From NCBI GenBank assembly GCA_021783235.1, contig JAJXUD010000038.1, positions 1-41,627 on the forward strand: DNA of 41,627 nt. The letters are read 5' to 3'. The notes beneath the pieces were generated by a model that saw only the letters and a program-made list of their open reading frames with translations, made no database searches and was not told the origin of the DNA. A program made the translations under genes and the position numbers. Positions 5,761-14,155 of this stretch are shown here, one piece after another (the stretch's first letter is position 1; each line of letters opens with the position of its first letter). The stretch is from Myxococcales bacterium (GTDB lineage: Bacteria > Myxococcota > Myxococcia > Myxococcales > JAKAPL01).

Positions 5761-6735
5761 ATGCTCGCCGCCGTCTGCCAGATGACCTCGGGGCCCGATC
5801 GGGCGAAGAACCTCGCGCAGGCCCAGGAGCTGCTCGCGCGGGCCGCGGCGCGCGGCGCCCGCTTCGCGGCGCTCCCCGAGAACTTCGAGCTGATGGCCTC
5901 CGCCGAGGAGAAGCGGGCGCAGGCCGAGCCGCTCGACGGGCCGACGCTCGGCGCGCTCTGCGAGACGGCCCGCGCGCTCGGGATCTGGCTGCTCGCGGGC
6001 TCGTTCGCCGAGCGCACGGAGGCGGGGCTCCTCGTGCGAAACACGAGCGCGCTCGTCGACGACCGGGGCGAGATCCGGGCGGTCTACCGGAAGATCCACC
6101 TCTTCGACGTCGACGTCGGCGACGGCGTGAGCTACCGCGAGAGCGACCTCGTCGAGCCCGGGAGCGAGACCGTCGTCGCGCCGACCCCGCTCGGCGAGCT
6201 CGGCCTCTCGATCTGCTACGACCTGCGCTTCCCCGAGCTCTACCGGCGGCTCTCGCGCGCGGGCGCGAAGCTGCTCGCGGTGCCGTCGGCCTTCACGCTG
6301 ATGACCGGCAAGGACCACTGGGAGCTGCTCCTGCGGGCCCGGGCGGTGGAGAACCAGTGCTACGTCGTCGCCCCCGCCCAGTTCGGGGAGCAGCCGGGCA
6401 ACCGGCGGACCTGGGGCCGCTCGATGATCGTCGACCCCTGGGGCACCGTCCTCGCCTGCTGCCCGGACGGTATCGGCGTCGCGCTCGCGGAGATCGACCT
6501 CGCGGCGCTGGAGCGCATCCGCCGCTCGCTGCCCGCGCTCGAGCAGCGCAAGCTCGACCTGTCGTCGGCCTCCGCCGCCCGTCAGCGCCACTCGGAGACG
6601 GCCGGGAACAGGAGCACGTCCTCGATCTTCTCGGCGCCGACGAGCAGCATGAGCAGCCGGTCGAGCCCCACCGCGACGCCGCCCGAGGGCGGCATCCGCC
6701 CCACCGCCTCGAGGAACCGCTCGTCGAGCGGGTAG
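5761..6735 (+). CDS. Carbon-nitrogen hydrolase (Nit1 / deaminated glutathione amidase type)
   Basis: 324 residues. The nitrilase-superfamily triad is visible: Glu40 (LPENFE), Lys111 (YRKIHLFDVDV) and Cys152 (ICYDLRFPELYR). The KIHLFDVDV..G..Y.ES string is characteristic of the Nit1 branch, which hydrolyses the amide of deaminated glutathione as metabolite repair in the cytosol; assignment at that level is probable, not certain. The catalytic domain ends near residue 268 (LPALEQRKLDL). The remaining 56 residues are Ser/Arg/Pro-rich and lie antisense to the 3' end of the convergent epmA-like gene, 154 bp of shared DNA. This tail is probably a read-on caused by loss of the ancestral stop. Confidence 0.88.
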   Translation: MLAAVCQMTSGPDRAKNLAQAQELLARAAARGARFAALPENFELMASAEEKRAQAEPLDGPTLGALCETARALGIWLLAGSFAERTEAGLLVRNTSALVDDRGEIRAVYRKIHLFDVDVGDGVSYRESDLVEPGSETVVAPTPLGELGLSICYDLRFPELYRRLSRAGAKLLAVPSAFTLMTGKDHWELLLRARAVENQCYVVAPAQFGEQPGNRRTWGRSMIVDPWGTVLACCPDGIGVALAEIDLAALERIRRSLPALEQRKLDLSSASAARQRHSETAGNRSTSSIFSAPTSSMSSRSSPTATPPEGGIRPTASRNRSSSG

Positions 6736-7490
6736 ACCGGCCTTCCCGCCGCGCGCCGCTGCGCCTGCTCGTGGACGAGGCGGCGCCGCTGCTCGACCGC
6801 GTCGTTCAGCTCGCCGAAGCCGTTCGCGAGCTCGAGGCCGCCCGCGTAGAGCTCGAAGCGGTCGGCGGTGCCGTCGGGCTTCAGCCGGGCGAGCGCCGCC
6901 ATCGAGCCCGGCCAGTCGACGAGGAACGTCGGCGCCCGCCGGCCCAGCGCGGGCTCGATCCGATCGAGGAAGAGGCGGAAGAAGGCGTCCTCGTCCTCCG
7001 GCACGACGAGCCCCTCCCGGGCGAACGCCTCGCGGACGGTCAGCCGCTCGAATGGCGCGGCGAGCGGCGCCCCCGAGGTCGCCCAGCGCTCCTCGGCCGC
7101 CGCGTGGACGATCGCCTCGAGGTCCGCCATCACCTCGAACGAACTCCCCGGCGAACGGTAGTGCTCGAGCATCGTGAACTCGGGGTTGTGCGCCGCCGCC
7201 GCCTCGCCGTTGCGGAACGCCTTGCAGATGGTGAAGACGTGCCCCATCCCCTCGGCGAGCAGCCGCTTCATCGCGTACTCGGGCGAGCTGTGCAGGTAGA
7301 GCCGCCGCGCCGGCACGTCGCCGAGCTCCGGGGCGAACTCGCTCTCGAACGCCGTGATGTGAGGCTCCATGCCGGGCGCCGGCACGAGGCAGGGGGTCTC
7401 GACCTCGAGGTAGCCGCGCGCGCCGAGCGTCTCGCGGATCACGGCGTTCAGCCGAGCCCGCGCCCGGGCGATCTCCTTGCGATCTCTCAT
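6582..7490 (-). CDS. epmA: EF-P--(R)-beta-lysine ligase-like protein (EpmA/GenX/PoxA)
   Basis: 302 residues from ATG 7490, with an AGGA-like ribosome site about 10 bp upstream; an earlier in-frame Met at 7547 would add only low-complexity Ala/Arg sequence. It is a stand-alone class II lysyl-tRNA-synthetase catalytic core without the anticodon-binding domain, the hallmark of EpmA, which attaches (R)-beta-lysine to elongation factor P. Motif 1 lies around YLEVETPCLVP. Motif 2 is FTICKAFRNGE with HNPEFTMLEHYR, and motif 3 is GVAVGLDRLLMLLVG. Neither efp nor epmB is in the window. Its 3' 154 bp overlap the convergent amidase gene. Confidence 0.88.
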   Translation of the reverse strand: MRDRKEIARARARLNAVIRETLGARGYLEVETPCLVPAPGMEPHITAFESEFAPELGDVPARRLYLHSSPEYAMKRLLAEGMGHVFTICKAFRNGEAAAAHNPEFTMLEHYRSPGSSFEVMADLEAIVHAAAEERWATSGAPLAAPFERLTVREAFAREGLVVPEDEDAFFRLFLDRIEPALGRRAPTFLVDWPGSMAALARLKPDGTADRFELYAGGLELANGFGELNDAVEQRRRLVHEQAQRRAAGRPVYPLDERFLEAVGRMPPSGGVAVGLDRLLMLLVGAEKIEDVLLFPAVSEWR

Positions 7491-7625
7491 GGTCCGCGTC
7501 CTGCTAGCAGCCCTTCCGGCTCGGGTCCAGGCCTCGCGGGCGGGCATCGCAGACCGTGCATGTATGGGGCCGCGTGTGGATCGGCGGCGAGACGGTGGGC
7601 GTCCCCGGCAGATCCAGCCAGATCA

Positions 7626-7952: not shown

Positions 7953-9008
7953 ATGGCACGACCGACGAGAAAGACTCTCATCGAAGCACTGGAGCAGCGC
8001 CGCGGCTCCAGGGTGATCTGCTACCTGACGTCTGACCGTCCGGGAGCCGACGCCCAGATTCAGAAGGATGTCCTTCCGCTCCTCTTCGAGATCCTGAGCC
8101 GTGCCGGCGAGACGCGTCAGATCGATCTTTTCCTCTATACGCAGGGTGGCGACACACTCGCGGCGTTCGGCCTCGCTCGACAGCTTCACGAGTTCTGCAA
8201 GACGCTTGGGGTTCTCACACCGCTGCGATGCCACAGCGCTGGAACGCTGATTGCGCTCGGGGCGAACGACATCGTGATGACGAAGGGCGCGACGCTCAGC
8301 CCGATTGACCCGAGCGTCGTCGGACCGTTGAACCCAGTGATCGAGGTTGGACCAGGGCAGAGGCAGCTCATTCCCCTCAGCGTGGAGACGGTCGCGGGCT
8401 TCAAGGATCTGGTCTCGAGTGACTGGGACATCAAGGGTGAGGAGGCATTGAGCGCCGCCTTCCGCGTTCTGGCAGAGCGAGTGCACCCACTTGCCCTTGG
8501 TGGGGTTTACCGCGCGCGGTCGCAGATCGAGCGCCTCGCCAAGACGCTGCTCCTCCGGCACCGCACGGATGACGACGAGAGGCTGCAAGGCATCGTCCGC
8601 GAACTGACGCGGAACTTCGGTTCACACGACTACCCGATTTCACGCACTGAAGCACGGAAGCTGCTCGGGGCCCAGATTCATGCCGATGACCCCGAGACCG
8701 AAAAGTTGATGTGGGAGCTCTTCAAGGACTTCTTCGACGAGATGGAGCTCGGGCAGGCGTTCGATCCAACCGTTGCGCTGCATGCTGCGCGGGCAGGAGG
8801 CATGCAGGGGCCGCTGAAGGTGGCACACGCGCTGGCCTTCCTCGAGTCGAGAGACGAGGGCGTCCGCGCGGAGAGAGAGTTGGAGCTGACCGAGGTGATG
8901 CAGCAGCCCGTCATGCTTGGACTGCCGGGGTTGCCAACTCCGCCGGCGGCTCAGCCTACGGGCGTGCGAGCCTCGGTGGTAGGCGCGGGGTGGAAGCGCT
9001 ATACTTAG
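7953..9008 (+). CDS. ClpP-fold serine protease, serine dehydrogenase proteinase (SDH) family
   Basis: 351 residues. The ClpP/crotonase-like core shows FLYTQGGDTLAAFGLARQL (oxyanion and dyad region), LRCHSAGTLIALGANDIVM with the predicted nucleophile Ser95, then GATLSPIDPSVVGPLNP. This matches the family Pfam calls SDH_protease, soluble relatives of SppA without a membrane anchor. No TM segment or signal peptide is seen, so it is probably cytosolic. The C-terminal half is helical and carries DPETEKLMWELFKDFFDEM. The target is unknown. Codons such as gca, cga, aga, act and gaa are frequent, unlike in the flanking genes, which suggests transfer. Two small genes follow at short spacing: a 112-residue protein after 11 bp, then a RelE-like protein. 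Confidence 0.85.
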   Translation: MARPTRKTLIEALEQRRGSRVICYLTSDRPGADAQIQKDVLPLLFEILSRAGETRQIDLFLYTQGGDTLAAFGLARQLHEFCKTLGVLTPLRCHSAGTLIALGANDIVMTKGATLSPIDPSVVGPLNPVIEVGPGQRQLIPLSVETVAGFKDLVSSDWDIKGEEALSAAFRVLAERVHPLALGGVYRARSQIERLAKTLLLRHRTDDDERLQGIVRELTRNFGSHDYPISRTEARKLLGAQIHADDPETEKLMWELFKDFFDEMELGQAFDPTVALHAARAGGMQGPLKVAHALAFLESRDEGVRAERELELTEVMQQPVMLGLPGLPTPPAAQPTGVRASVVGAGWKRYT

Positions 9009-9019
9009 GAGCCAACGCG

Positions 9020-9358
9020 ATGGAATCTCTTGGATACTGCCTTCCCGCCACCTTCTCCCGTGACACGGTGACCGGGGTTTCTGCCTTTGCGTCGACGGGC
9101 TCGACACTGTTTGGGTCGCCCCGGGACATTCTCGGCCTCCTGAGCCTGCTCTCGGACCTCGAGGTCCCCCAAGGGATGGGTTGGGCCCCGGTCGTGCTAG
9201 CTCCCCTGGCCCTTCCGCTGGCTGGCCGGATCGACTTGCCGGCGCATGAGCGAGCCATCTCAGCCGAGGCGCTTGCGATGCTGGATGCCGGCAAGCTGGA
9301 CGCGCTTGCCGGCCGGATCGCAGCGCTGAACCTAGAAGAAATCGAGGACGACGAGTAG
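9020..9358 (+). CDS. Unknown 112-residue protein between the protease and the RelE-like gene
   Basis: ATG 9020 has an AGGAG ribosome site 8 bp upstream and lies 11 bp after the protease stop. The N-terminal half is neutral and Gly/Ser/Leu-rich (GVSAFASTGSTLFGSPRDIL, LLSLLSDLEV), with a hydrophobic stretch GWAPVVLAPLALPLAG. The C-terminal half is helical (AISAEALAMLDAGKLDALAG) and ends in an acidic tail, LNLEEIEDDE. No family was recognised. Position directly upstream of a RelE/ParE-like gene and an acidic C-terminus would suit an antitoxin, but no DNA-binding motif is visible, so this is inference only. Codon use is shared with the protease gene. Confidence 0.75.
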   Translation: MESLGYCLPATFSRDTVTGVSAFASTGSTLFGSPRDILGLLSLLSDLEVPQGMGWAPVVLAPLALPLAGRIDLPAHERAISAEALAMLDAGKLDALAGRIAALNLEEIEDDE

Positions 9359-9383
9359 TCGGCAACTCGACCAGCGCGCGCAC

Positions 9384-9743
9384 GTGTTCGTCCTCGACCG
9401 CACAGAGCAAGCGGCCGATCAGCTGGAGCACTTGCGAGCGACCCCGGCTCTCCAGAAGCGCTACAAGGCTGTCTCGAAGGCTCTCCGACTTCTGGCGGAG
9501 AACCCCAGACACCCCGGCCTCCAAACGCACCAATGGAAGGGTGACATCTGTCCTCACGGCGACAAGCTTTGGGAGGCGTACGCGGAGAATCAGACGCCTG
9601 GGGCATATCGAATCTTCTTCTGTTACCCTCCCGAGCCATCTACCGGCGCGAGCAAGCCCGCCATGACTGCCCCAGGTGATCGATCCGAGGATCCGCCGCG
9701 ACCCAAGCGCATCCTGATCCTCGCCATCGCGCCCCACCCGTAG
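9384..9743 (+). CDS. RelE/ParE-superfamily toxin-like protein
   Basis: 119 residues from GTG 9384, 25 bp after the 112-residue gene; the start is uncertain because the frame is open a little upstream. The pattern resembles the RelE/ParE fold: an N-terminal strand (VFVLDRTEQAADQL), two helices (LQKRYKAVSKALRLLAENP), then strands LQTHQWKGD, LWEAYAENQTPGAYRIFFCY and the final RILILAIAPHP. The GAYRIFFCY strand with the preceding Arg/Lys-rich helix is where RelE/ParE family members place functional residues. A Pro/Ser/Arg-rich insert of about 22 residues separates the last two strands. Whether it is an mRNA interferase, a gyrase poison or inactive cannot be told. Confidence 0.6.
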   Translation: MFVLDRTEQAADQLEHLRATPALQKRYKAVSKALRLLAENPRHPGLQTHQWKGDICPHGDKLWEAYAENQTPGAYRIFFCYPPEPSTGASKPAMTAPGDRSEDPPRPKRILILAIAPHP

Positions 9744-9762: not shown

Positions 9763-11118
9763 TCATCCTTCGGCGGTACGGCGCTGCAGCGCGATCGCGT
9801 CGAGGCGCCAGGTGCCGGTGGGGCGATCTTCGGGCACCGGGAGCTCGGGCGGTTCGCGGGGGAGCCAGACGTCGAAGCAGGTCCCCCGCCCCGGCGCGCT
9901 CTCGACCTCGATGCGGCCTCCGTGGTCGGCGACCACGCCGTGCACGACGGCGAGGCCGAGGCCCGTCCCCTCGCCCACGGGCTTGGTCGTGAAGAACGGC
10001 TCGAAGAGTCGGGCGCGGGTGGCGGCGTCCATGCCGATCCCGTTGTCGCGGACCGACACCCGGACCCCATCCACCTCGGCCCGGGTGGAAACCGTCACGG
10101 TCCCGGACGGATTGCCGCGGATCGCCTGCGCGGCGTTGACGAGCAGGTTCAGGAAGAGCTGGGAGATTTGGCGGGGGCGCCCCAGGATCCGGGGGAGATT
10201 ACCTAGATCGCGCACCAGGGTGCAGTTGGCGCACTTCATCTGGGACTGGGCGATGCGGATCGCCGCCTCGAGCTCCTCGTTCAGATCGAACGGCTCCGGC
10301 TCCGCGCGGTCGTTGCGCGCGAAACGGCGCAGATCCGCGACGATGGCATTGACCCGCCGGATACCGTCGAGCGTCTCCGGCAGAATCTCGTCGGCCCACT
10401 CCCGCAGCGAAGCCGACAGGTCGGGCATCGCCTTCAGGTCGCGCTGCAGGGCCGACACGTTGCTGCCGACGAAGCTCATCGGGTTGTTGATCTCGTGCGC
10501 GACGCCCGCGGCCAGCATCCCGAGTGCGGCGAGCTTCTCCTGACGCATGGCCGTCGCGTGGACGCTCTTCAGCTCGTGGTGGGCCCGCTCGAGCTCGGCG
10601 CGGCCGGACATCGCCTCGTCGAGCATCCGAAGGATGATCCGCGACTGGCGGTGAACGACGAAGAAGGCGGAGGCGGTTCCGGCGCCCATCAGGAGCAGCC
10701 CGAGCGGTGAGCCTCCGTCCAGCAGGGCGACGAGGCCCGCGCCACCCCAGAGGACGACCCCGCGCCAAGACGCGCTGGGGGTCGGCAGCATCCCCACCAC
10801 GACGAGCTCCAGGAGCAGGTACGCCTCCGATGCCACGCCCCAGCCGGTGAGATGACCGACGACTAGGATCGAACAGAGGTACCAGGCGACTCGGGCGGCC
10901 TCGCCCACCTCGACGCCGAGCCTGGAAGACAGCCGGTCGAGGCCGGGTCCGTTCACCCACGCGGTCAGGGCGAAGTTCAGCGCCAGGAGCGCCGCCGTGC
11001 CCGGCCGCTGCCAGAGGCCCCACACTTCGACGAGGATCAGGAGGTCGATCACGCCGAACGCGGCATGGATGATCGCTCGGCTTCCCCTCTCGCCCGCGGC
11101 TGGTCGACCCTGCGTCAT
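9763..11118 (-). CDS. Membrane-bound sensor histidine kinase
   Basis: 451 residues; ATG overlaps the receiver gene's stop in TGATG, so the pair is translationally coupled. About five to six N-terminal TM segments (AIIHAAFGVIDLLILVEVW, ARVAWYLCSILVVGHLTG, LLLELVVVGMLP, VVLWGGAGLVALL, LGLLLMGAGTASAFFVV) form the sensor, with no periplasmic domain. A coiled coil follows (LERAHHELKSVHATAM...). The H-box is AAGVAHEINNPMS (phosphoacceptor His208). The N-box is LFLNLLVNAAQAI, G1 is VRDNGIGMD, the F-box region is LFEPFFTTK and G2 is GEGTGLGLAVVHG. All catalytic boxes are intact. The signal sensed is unknown. Confidence 0.92.
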   Translation of the reverse strand: MTQGRPAAGERGSRAIIHAAFGVIDLLILVEVWGLWQRPGTAALLALNFALTAWVNGPGLDRLSSRLGVEVGEAARVAWYLCSILVVGHLTGWGVASEAYLLLELVVVGMLPTPSASWRGVVLWGGAGLVALLDGGSPLGLLLMGAGTASAFFVVHRQSRIILRMLDEAMSGRAELERAHHELKSVHATAMRQEKLAALGMLAAGVAHEINNPMSFVGSNVSALQRDLKAMPDLSASLREWADEILPETLDGIRRVNAIVADLRRFARNDRAEPEPFDLNEELEAAIRIAQSQMKCANCTLVRDLGNLPRILGRPRQISQLFLNLLVNAAQAIRGNPSGTVTVSTRAEVDGVRVSVRDNGIGMDAATRARLFEPFFTTKPVGEGTGLGLAVVHGVVADHGGRIEVESAPGRGTCFDVWLPREPPELPVPEDRPTGTWRLDAIALQRRTAEG

Positions 11119-11498
11119 CACGACACGTCCCCCTCGCGCCGCTCCAGCGCCGCGAGCGCGCCGCGCAAGATCGCGAGCAGCGGCCCGTCCTCCCACGGCT
11201 TCGTGACGAGCGGAACCCCGCCGCCGTACTCAGCCACGGCCCCGGGGACCGCGTCGCCGGAGAGCAGCACGCGCCGCGCCCGAGGCAACCGCCGCCCGAC
11301 CTGCGCGAGCAACTCCGCGCCCGTCATCCCGGGCATTCGCTGATCCGAGAGGACGAGATCGGGGGCGAAGTCGTCGAGGAGGGCAAGGGCCGTGGCGCCA
11401 TCGGGGGCAACCCGGACATCGAAACCCTCGCGCCGCAGGAGTCGGAACAGCGCTTTACCGACCAGCGGATCGTCATCCACCACCAGGATCCTCGACAC
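11118..11498 (-). CDS. Single-domain response regulator (receiver only)
   Basis: 126 residues from GTG 11498, chosen because GGAG sits 7 bp upstream and the receiver begins at once (MSRILVVDDDP); an in-frame ATG at 11570 would add 24 unrelated residues. The acidic pocket is Asp8-Asp10, the phosphoacceptor Asp52 (LVLSDQRMPG), the conserved Ser80 (VLLSGDA) and Lys100 (VTKPW). There is no output domain, so it probably acts by protein contact or as a phosphate relay for the kinase encoded next to it (TGATG overlap). The DQRMPG motif is common in receivers partnered with hybrid or NtrB-like kinases. Confidence 0.9.
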   Translation of the reverse strand: MSRILVVDDDPLVGKALFRLLRREGFDVRVAPDGATALALLDDFAPDLVLSDQRMPGMTGAELLAQVGRRLPRARRVLLSGDAVPGAVAEYGGGVPLVTKPWEDGPLLAILRGALAALERREGDVS

Positions 11499-11718
11499 CG
11501 TCGGTCTCCATTCTCCAGTCTCCCACCCGATCTGCCCCGTCGAATCGACTCCATGCAACCACGAGGCCATCCTGTGGCAGCTACGATCTCAGCCACTTGG
11601 CGAGCCGTTGGGAGGGTCCGGCGCGACCCGGTGGGCCGTTGGCGCACGGGCGAGCCCAAACGGGGCTCGCTTCTCTTTTCGATCCGGGGACCCTAAAGAT
11701 TCGGCGGAGGGGAACGCC

Positions 11719-12856: not shown

Positions 12857-14155
12857 ATGCCCCCCCCCCGCCCCCTCCGCTCGCGGCTCGCGCTCGCGAC
12901 GGCCTTCGCCCTGGGCGCCGGGGCGCTGCTGTCGCTGCCGGCGCTCGCGGGCTCGCTCTACCGGGAGCTCGACGTCTTCAGCCGCGTCCTCGCCGACATC
13001 GAGAACGAGTACGTCGAGCCGGTCGACGAGAAGCGGCTCGTCTACGGCGCCATCCGGGGGATGCTCGCGACGCTCGACCCGCACAGCCTCTTCATGGACC
13101 CGCAGCAGTACCAGCAGATGAAGGCCGACACGACGGGCGAGTTCGGCGGGCTCGGCCTCGAGGTCACCCTGCGCGGCGGCACGCTCGTCGTGGTCTCGCC
13201 CATCGACGACACGCCCGCGGCGCGCGCCGGCATCGAGCCGGGAGACCAGATCCTCCAGATCGACCGGCTCTCGACCCGCGACCTCTCGCTCGCCCAGGCG
13301 ATCGAGCGGATGCAGGGGCCGCCCGGGACGAAGGTCGACCTCCTCGTGATGCGCCACGGCTTCTCGCAGCCGCGGCTCCTCTCGATCGTGCGCGAGCACA
13401 TCCGCATCAACCCGGTCGAGGCGCGGCTCGTCGAGGGCAACCTCGGCTACGTGCGGGTGCGCAGCTTCCAGGACCGGACCGACGGCTACCTCGCGACCGC
13501 GCTCGAGAAGCTCCACGCGGCGGCGGGCGGGCCGCTCGCGGGGCTCGTGCTCGACCTGCGCAACAACCCCGGCGGGCTGCTCGACGAGGCGGTGCGGGTC
13601 GCCGACCGCTTCCTCGAGAGCGGCGTCATCGTGACGACCGAGGGGCGCAACCACGAGCACGTCGAGAAGGAGCTCGCCCACCCGCGCGGGACCGAGCCGA
13701 ACTACCCGATGATCGTCCTCGTCAACGGCGGCTCCGCCTCGGCCTCGGAGATCGTGGCCGGGGCGCTGCAGGACCACGGCCGCGCCGTCATCATGGGGAC
13801 GCAGACCTTCGGCAAGGGCTCCGTGCAGACCGTCATCGAGCTGCCCGACGGCAGCGGGCTCAAGCTGACCGTCGCGAAGTACTACACGCCGAAGCACCGC
13901 TCCATCCAGGAGGAGGGCATCACGCCGGACGTGCTGGTGCGGCAGGTGCAGGACTCGGGGAGCGACGAGCCCGTGGGGCCGCGCGAGCGCGATCTGCCGA
14001 ACCACCTGCGCCACGAGGGACCGGAGCCGGCAGGTGCGGCGGCGCCGCTGACGCCGCCCTCGGGCGAGAAGGGCGACTTCCAGCTCCGCACCGCCATCGA
14101 CTACCTGAAGACCTGGAAGATCTTCCGGTCCGAGCTGTCGCGGAAGGGGAGCTGA
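12857..14155 (+). CDS. S41 family C-terminal processing peptidase (CtpA/Prc type)
   Basis: 432 residues, the usual size for CtpA. A signal peptide or anchor (LALATAFALGAGALLSLPALA) is followed by the N-terminal helical region (VFSRVLADIENEYVEPVDEK, MLATLDPHSLFMDP). A PDZ domain follows (about residues 85-165; FGGLGLEVTLRGG, AGIEPGDQILQID), then the S41 core (VRVRSFQDRTDGY, LVLDLRNNPGGLLDEAV). The catalytic Ser-Lys dyad lies in GGSASASEIVAGAL (Ser295 by alignment to Prc) and TFGKGSVQ (Lys320). It cleaves protein C-termini in the periplasm. A run of ten C residues just after the ATG could cause sequencing or slippage error. The PEGA gene starts 4 bp downstream, so the two are probably cotranscribed. 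Confidence 0.93.
   Translation: MPPPRPLRSRLALATAFALGAGALLSLPALAGSLYRELDVFSRVLADIENEYVEPVDEKRLVYGAIRGMLATLDPHSLFMDPQQYQQMKADTTGEFGGLGLEVTLRGGTLVVVSPIDDTPAARAGIEPGDQILQIDRLSTRDLSLAQAIERMQGPPGTKVDLLVMRHGFSQPRLLSIVREHIRINPVEARLVEGNLGYVRVRSFQDRTDGYLATALEKLHAAAGGPLAGLVLDLRNNPGGLLDEAVRVADRFLESGVIVTTEGRNHEHVEKELAHPRGTEPNYPMIVLVNGGSASASEIVAGALQDHGRAVIMGTQTFGKGSVQTVIELPDGSGLKLTVAKYYTPKHRSIQEEGITPDVLVRQVQDSGSDEPVGPRERDLPNHLRHEGPEPAGAAAPLTPPSGEKGDFQLRTAIDYLKTWKIFRSELSRKGS

Follow-up and report, generated by a model that had tools for sequence, protein, structure and literature searches.

A putative RelE-type toxin-antitoxin pair in a Myxococcales bacterium, possibly controlled by a ClpP-fold protease encoded in the same operon

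The release of type II toxins from their antitoxins is an open question, and according to a review, no activation of toxins was detectable in E. coli when stress induced the degradation of antitoxins (PMC8165232). In Microcystis aeruginosa, the gene encoding the orthocaspase MaOC1 is followed by a RelE/ParE-type toxin-antitoxin (TA) pair, and this protease releases the toxin by cutting the antitoxin (PMC7935541). In CmdTAC, degradation of the antitoxin by ClpP can switch on anti-phage defence (PMC11618068), while the type VI system SocAB makes the opposite use of proteolysis, with the antitoxin acting as an adaptor for toxin destruction (PMC8165232). Here we describe a three-gene cassette from a Myxococcales bacterium (assembly GCA_021783235.1, contig JAJXUD010000038.1, whose 41,627 nucleotides are referred to as the window), which encodes an SDH-family ClpP-fold serine protease (P0001), a predicted antitoxin (P0002) and a RelE/YoeB-fold toxin (P0003). 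Our preferred reading, to which we give a probability of roughly 0.5, is a type II TA pair with a dedicated ClpP-fold protease, which probably releases the toxin through cleavage of the antitoxin. The cassette consists of the following elements:

7953 to 9008, plus strand: gene of the SDH-family ClpP-fold serine protease P0001 (351 amino acids), assigned by PF01972, phrog_11747, a structure model and fold matches.
9007 to 9011, plus strand: AGGAG Shine-Dalgarno sequence of the following gene, overlapping the protease stop codon and lying 8 nucleotides before the ATG.
9020 to 9358, plus strand: gene of the 112-residue middle protein P0002, the predicted antitoxin, ending in LNLEEIEDDE, with a homologue in the same place in a second genome and coding-type substitutions.
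9384 to 9743, plus strand: gene of the RelE/YoeB-fold toxin P0003 (119 amino acids, GTG start), assigned by its structure model.

The toxin matched no Pfam family, and a search of PDB sequences gave weak matches only. However, its AlphaFold2 (AF2) model, with a predicted local distance difference test (pLDDT) score of 80.5, has the beta-alpha-alpha-beta4 order as in RelE, and its best structural matches are TA toxins, namely RelK (3oei, Z 12.1) and YoeB (Z 11.8), with 6n90 as the best Foldseek match (E 7e-4). The third protein had been called RelE-like in the original prediction, made from the letters of the window, and its predicted fold agrees with this. Across 19 aligned toxin sequences, Arg76 and His118 never vary and Glu64 is conserved in at least 90%, a set that at the level of sequence is reminiscent of the conserved Glu/Arg/His residues of YoeB. 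In our best reading, P0003 is probably a ribosome-dependent mRNA endonuclease. It carries one additional element:

9630 to 9707, plus strand: low-complexity insertion in the toxin (approximately residues 83-108), missing from most aligned relatives, with pLDDT below 50 at residues 86-93 and 99-102.

Plasmids from Streptomyces, Kitasatospora, cyanobacteria and Lactobacillus carry relatives of the toxin. Within the phylum of the window, relatives occur in 7 of 195 genomes, and three other searches found them in 17 of 297, 1 of 398 and 1 of 199 genomes. A single-sequence search of viral contigs with P0003 returned nothing, while an alignment-based search returned one truncated relative. The latter, on a large viral contig (L082:3064-4222), follows an open reading frame (ORF) ending in the antitoxin tail described below, and its frame looks broken or chimeric. 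These relatives form a RelE-like TA family without Pfam match, in which the toxin C-terminus reads 'ITPHP' and the antitoxins swap their N-terminal parts and keep one tail (loci L005, L006, L007, L010, L031-L034, L075-L079 and L082-L102).

A partner gene precedes nearly all relatives of P0003, about 30 of them without a protease gene, at a distance of -20 to +12 bp. The N-termini of these partners vary, since they are often AbrB/MazE-like to the eye, gave one weak RelB-like Pfam match, and are long and unrelated in several cases. In contrast, their tail is constant and reads roughly 'IPxxEaWLyxNpeALxsVxxGLxdAaxGkxxxLgsfaxYaDde'. A profile of P0002 and its homologue from the second genome, G044, matched a profile of 27 such tails in HHalign with a probability of 88.9 and P 2.4e-6 over residues 70-111 of P0002, whereas the best of 300 column shuffles reached P 0.0068 and ten unrelated middle-protein decoys stayed at P ≥ 0.15. 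The matched part of the gene is as follows:

9227 to 9355, plus strand: antitoxin-type C-terminal tail of P0002 (residues 70-112), matched by HHalign to 27 partner tails.

A HMMER profile built from 14 tails did not reach significance with the middle protein; with a profile of 27 tails searched against 20,002 sequences, P0002 ranked first and the G044 middle protein 35th, and it was the profile-profile comparison that decided. Since P0002 carries the constant tail of the partners and occupies the same position before the toxin, it is most likely an antitoxin of the partner family of this toxin, with a new N-terminal half. Its assignment as an antitoxin, as originally predicted, is therefore well supported, but the description of the protein as acidic holds mainly for its C-terminal end and not throughout. 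No fold or domain was recognised in the N-terminal approximately 69 residues. P0002 had no Pfam match up to E 10, and thus none to a DNA-binding domain, no match to the Panacea domain PF13274 and no match in plasmids. Some type II antitoxins are known to lack a DNA-binding domain.

The three genes were found again, in the same order, in a Deltaproteobacteria/Myxococcota metagenome-assembled genome of the same order as the window and another family (G044, corresponding to locus L036, contig JANXXR010000008.1). Identity between the two copies is 58% for the protease, 43% over 47 aligned residues of the tail for the middle protein and 62% for the toxin, and none of 2000 shuffles reached the score of either the middle-protein or the toxin alignment. 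Codon differences at positions 1, 2 and 3 number 114, 95 and 192 in the protease gene, 21, 18 and 31 in the middle gene and 30, 23 and 60 in the toxin gene, and this concentration at third positions in all three is the pattern of real coding genes. The possibility, raised alongside the original prediction, that homologues of the three genes never occur together elsewhere does not hold. A tyrosine-recombinase-like gene converges on the G044 cassette. No relatives of P0003 were present near the other SDH loci examined.

Within the window, the three genes are co-directional, with gaps of 11 bp between P0001 and P0002 and 25 bp between P0002 and P0003, so that the last two form a pair of small adjacent genes with the predicted antitoxin first, as in type II TA systems. 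The flanking genes lie on the opposite strand:

6582 to 7547, minus strand: EpmA-like gene, flanking the cassette on one side.
9763 to 11570, minus strand: histidine kinase/response regulator pair, flanking it on the other side.

The GC content at third codon positions is 0.77, 0.75 and 0.73 in P0001, P0002 and P0003, as compared to 0.96 in the EpmA-like gene and 0.87 and 0.84 in the histidine kinase and response regulator genes. Gene arrangement, Shine-Dalgarno site and deviating codon use are all as first described. Because of the tight spacing, the overlap of AGGAG with the stop codon and the codon use differing from that of the flanks, the cassette appears to be a single unit of foreign origin, and our best reading includes a horizontally acquired three-gene operon, in which the protease belongs to the same functional unit as the TA pair. 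A clean empty insertion site could not be shown, the EpmA-like gene of relatives being situated in a different setting. None of the three proteins matched the anti-phage models of PADLOC-DB 2.0.0 up to E 1. A gene reading like a CtpA-type (S41) protease is located at 12857-14155, 3 kb from the cassette, with no link seen.

The association of SDH proteases with toxins extends beyond the RelE type. We examined the regions after the SDH gene at 28 loci in genomes, on 11 viral contigs and in 22 additional genome matches, and in five further cassettes the gene after a small middle ORF encodes a toxin above the Pfam cut-off:

PIN (VapC-type) third gene: viral contig L074 and loci L110 and L111.
PemK/MazF third gene: locus L108.
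Fic/Doc third gene: locus L115.

The spacing within the SDH-toxin cassettes is tight (-25 to +60 bp). These five cassettes and the RelE pair occupy five distinct positions in a tree built from 49 SDH proteins, and because of this scatter the comparison suggests at least five SDH-toxin associations involving four toxin classes (RelE, PIN/VapC, PemK/MazF and Fic/Doc). The PIN cassette was found twice as a unit (L074 and L110, with 57, 35 and 54% identity for protease, middle and third protein), as was a cassette with a 103-residue unknown third protein (L038 and L104; 62, 39 and 60%). Together with the RelE type, three cassette types thus appear to be inherited as whole units. The third genes of L040 and L042 were considered as relatives, but this was not significant (56 of 1000 shuffles). 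With 211 PIN genes counted across 22 SDH-bearing genomes (73 Mb), approximately 0.10 PIN genes are expected at the third position of 35 loci, where three were seen (Poisson P 1.6e-4, or 0.005 if the related pair is counted once). For five separate toxin events P is about 3e-5 under our own assumption that 1% of genes are such toxins. Moreover, four SDH loci lie near or beside restriction-modification genes (MvaI-type, type I, Eco57I-type and other DNA methylase genes), and a fifth adjoins a SocA-Panacea gene. The proposal of a dedicated protease has gained comparative support, namely from the toxin associations, the twofold occurrence of cassette types and the restriction-modification neighbours.

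These data also bear on the simplest objection, that an ordinary RelE-type TA pair happens to lie beside an unrelated mobile SDH gene. It would agree with the lack of the protease in most relatives of the toxin, but the recurrence of all three genes at similar divergence in a second family, the five separate associations and the tight spacing in every one of them make such a coincidence improbable.

Concerning the protease itself, P0001 passes the Pfam family PF01972 (65.3 bits, cut-off 31.3) and matches phrog_11747 (E 7e-41), while it stays below the cut-off of the NCBIfam SDH equivalog NF047768 (76.2 versus 250 bits) and is hence a relative rather than a member of that equivalog. No relatives of P0001 were found in phage records. 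Its AF2 model (pLDDT 90.4) matches ClpP, SppA and the Pyrococcus 1510-N protease (top Z 13.0, approximately 164 residues at about 3 Å), whereas an extra C-terminal beta domain (residues 288-350) is barely covered by these matches. The CHSAGT motif, reported as intact, is indeed present at residues 93-98 with the serine at position 95, and Gly65, Gly66, Ser95, Thr98, Asp119, Arg187 and His225 are invariant across the 49 aligned SDH proteins. Judging from this conservation, Ser95, Asp119 and His225 likely form the catalytic set:

8235 to 8237, plus strand: codon of Ser95 (CHSAGT), the putative nucleophile, serine in 49 of 49 SDH proteins.
8307 to 8309, plus strand: codon of Asp119, candidate catalytic residue, 49 of 49.
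8625 to 8627, plus strand: codon of His225, candidate catalytic residue, 49 of 49.

SppA-like and 1510-N-like enzymes carry out limited proteolysis, and the matches of P0001 to these folds could therefore suggest that it matures the antitoxin or the toxin by a limited cut and has no role in stress release. As no conserved cleavage-like site was seen and the middle proteins diverge strongly, we regard maturation as highly improbable.

The simplest model is cleavage of the antitoxin, because P0002 possesses the cognate tail but lacks the customary N-terminal domain, and no unfoldase is linked to the protease. P0002 would hold P0003 through its C-terminal tail, and its unusual N-terminal half would replace the N-terminal domain of the relatives and serve as the part recognised by the protease. 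Upon a cue such as phage infection or another stress, the SDH protease, which has no linked ATPase, would cut the loosely folded P0002, and the freed P0003 would stop translation. The toxicity of P0003, the cleavage of the antitoxin and the response to stress or phage are inferences; an adaptor role of P0002 and a protease that is itself the effector, both considered below, would fit as well. SDH proteases might then be a portable release device, combined with RelE, PIN/VapC, PemK/MazF and Fic/Doc toxins. They might even form the conserved core of a widespread group of protease-gated TA or defence cassettes that has so far not been described, in which a fast-evolving small middle protein adapts the protease to the toxin in third position, including some unknown third proteins; this wider reading is tentative, and we would not quite back it at even odds.

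The two-part build of P0002 also suggests a different role, in which the tail binds the toxin and the N-terminal half binds the protease, so that the toxin is destroyed and is freed when protease or operon are blocked. There is a precedent, since SocA delivers SocB to ClpXP (PMC8165232), and at one locus (L128:1907-3857) a SocA-Panacea antitoxin gene and a 93-residue ORF are situated directly upstream of the SDH gene. However, the cassette has no AAA+ unfoldase gene, the folds of RelE, PIN and MazF are compact, and P0002 lacks a Panacea match, which renders an adaptor function rather unlikely.

Several observations weigh against antitoxin cleavage by a dedicated protease. Classical ClpP needs an unfoldase, and no AAA+ unfoldase or ATPase gene is linked to the cassette. 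The protease accompanies only two of about 35 toxins of the P0003 type, and the toxin cassettes L108, L111 and L115 are single examples each. The middle proteins of different cassettes have no domain in common, and no shared protease-recognition element was found in them; likewise, no N-terminal domain common to P0002 and other SDH small partners was detected (HHalign P 0.89), and the test for a cognate tail in the PIN cassette L111 gave no match. In the majority of SDH loci there is only a small partner ORF, with no toxin that we recognised, and in 47 of 5426 E. coli genomes an SDH pair is present as prophage cargo, where the protease gene and that of a 59-residue protein lie between the holin and antiterminator Q genes (L004:4989-6156, L064). 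A pair of protease and small protein can thus exist without a toxin.

It is therefore conceivable that SDH protease and small protein are a self-standing pair, to which the toxin was added later as a separate weapon; the protease would then be the effector, and the small protein would inhibit or regulate it. The prophage cargo fits this, as do the many SDH genes directly followed by a small ORF with a good Shine-Dalgarno sequence and no toxin, and within one clade the small partners appear related on visual inspection (L042, L044, L055, L071, L072, L105). We nevertheless consider it unlikely, since P0002 carries the antitoxin tail belonging to the toxin and is thereby linked to the toxin and not just to the protease, and since toxins at SDH loci are commoner than chance neighbours. 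Because many SDH genes lack a toxin and the middle proteins lack a common domain, the protease may serve the toxin pair, or a toxin may have joined an existing pair of protease and small protein.

Other SDH loci show further arrangements. In L043, L047, L049, L051 and L053, the SDH gene and a related partner of approximately 57-78 residues ('KYYLLTGxxGY') lie immediately upstream of dapB, in what seems to be a conserved chromosomal context; no toxin was seen in these Firmicutes loci near dapB, nor in a long-branched Chloroflexota SDH group (L119-L125). At L037:3292-4213 the SDH gene is followed by two genes weakly matching the PADLOC candidate system PDC-M32 (A and B), and at L046:8002-8857 by genes for a DUF5678 protein and a retropepsin-like aspartic protease, which places two proteases in one cassette.

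A TA operon with its own ClpP-fold protease would make both trigger and release of a type II toxin testable on one small plasmid. If SDH proteases indeed serve as a shared means of controlling toxins of many types, genes annotated as 'SDH family Clp fold serine proteinase', including the E. coli prophage cargo, would gain a testable role. Our literature search, whose coverage mostly excluded subscription papers and preprints, returned no SDH-linked system of protease, toxin and antitoxin. As far as found, what is new here is the combination of a type II TA system, in itself known, with its own ClpP-fold protease gene.

With the SDH family (NF047768/PF01972), P0001 shares the ClpP/SppA-type fold, the invariant Ser, Asp and His and a PF01972 score above cut-off, but it differs in its low NF047768 score, its C-terminal beta domain and its link to a toxin. 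The TA pair resembles RelBE and YefM-YoeB in toxin fold, in the order of antitoxin and toxin and in the acidic end of the antitoxin; however, here the toxin has no Pfam match, the N-terminus of the antitoxin no recognised DNA-binding domain, and the operon includes a protease. Toxin release in SocAB and TAC/CmdTAC likewise depends on ClpP-type proteolysis of toxin or antitoxin (PMC8165232, PMC11618068), but there the ClpP is the cell's own and the third gene of CmdTAC encodes a chaperone, whereas here the third component is itself a ClpP-fold protease. The nearest system is MaOC1, which may be taken as a direct precedent for a protease that cuts the antitoxin of a neighbouring gene. In both systems, the protease gene directly precedes a TA pair with a RelE/ParE-like toxin. 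MaOC1 is a caspase-fold cysteine protease reported from one locus, with no set of different toxins, in contrast to the ClpP-fold serine protease with Ser95 described here.
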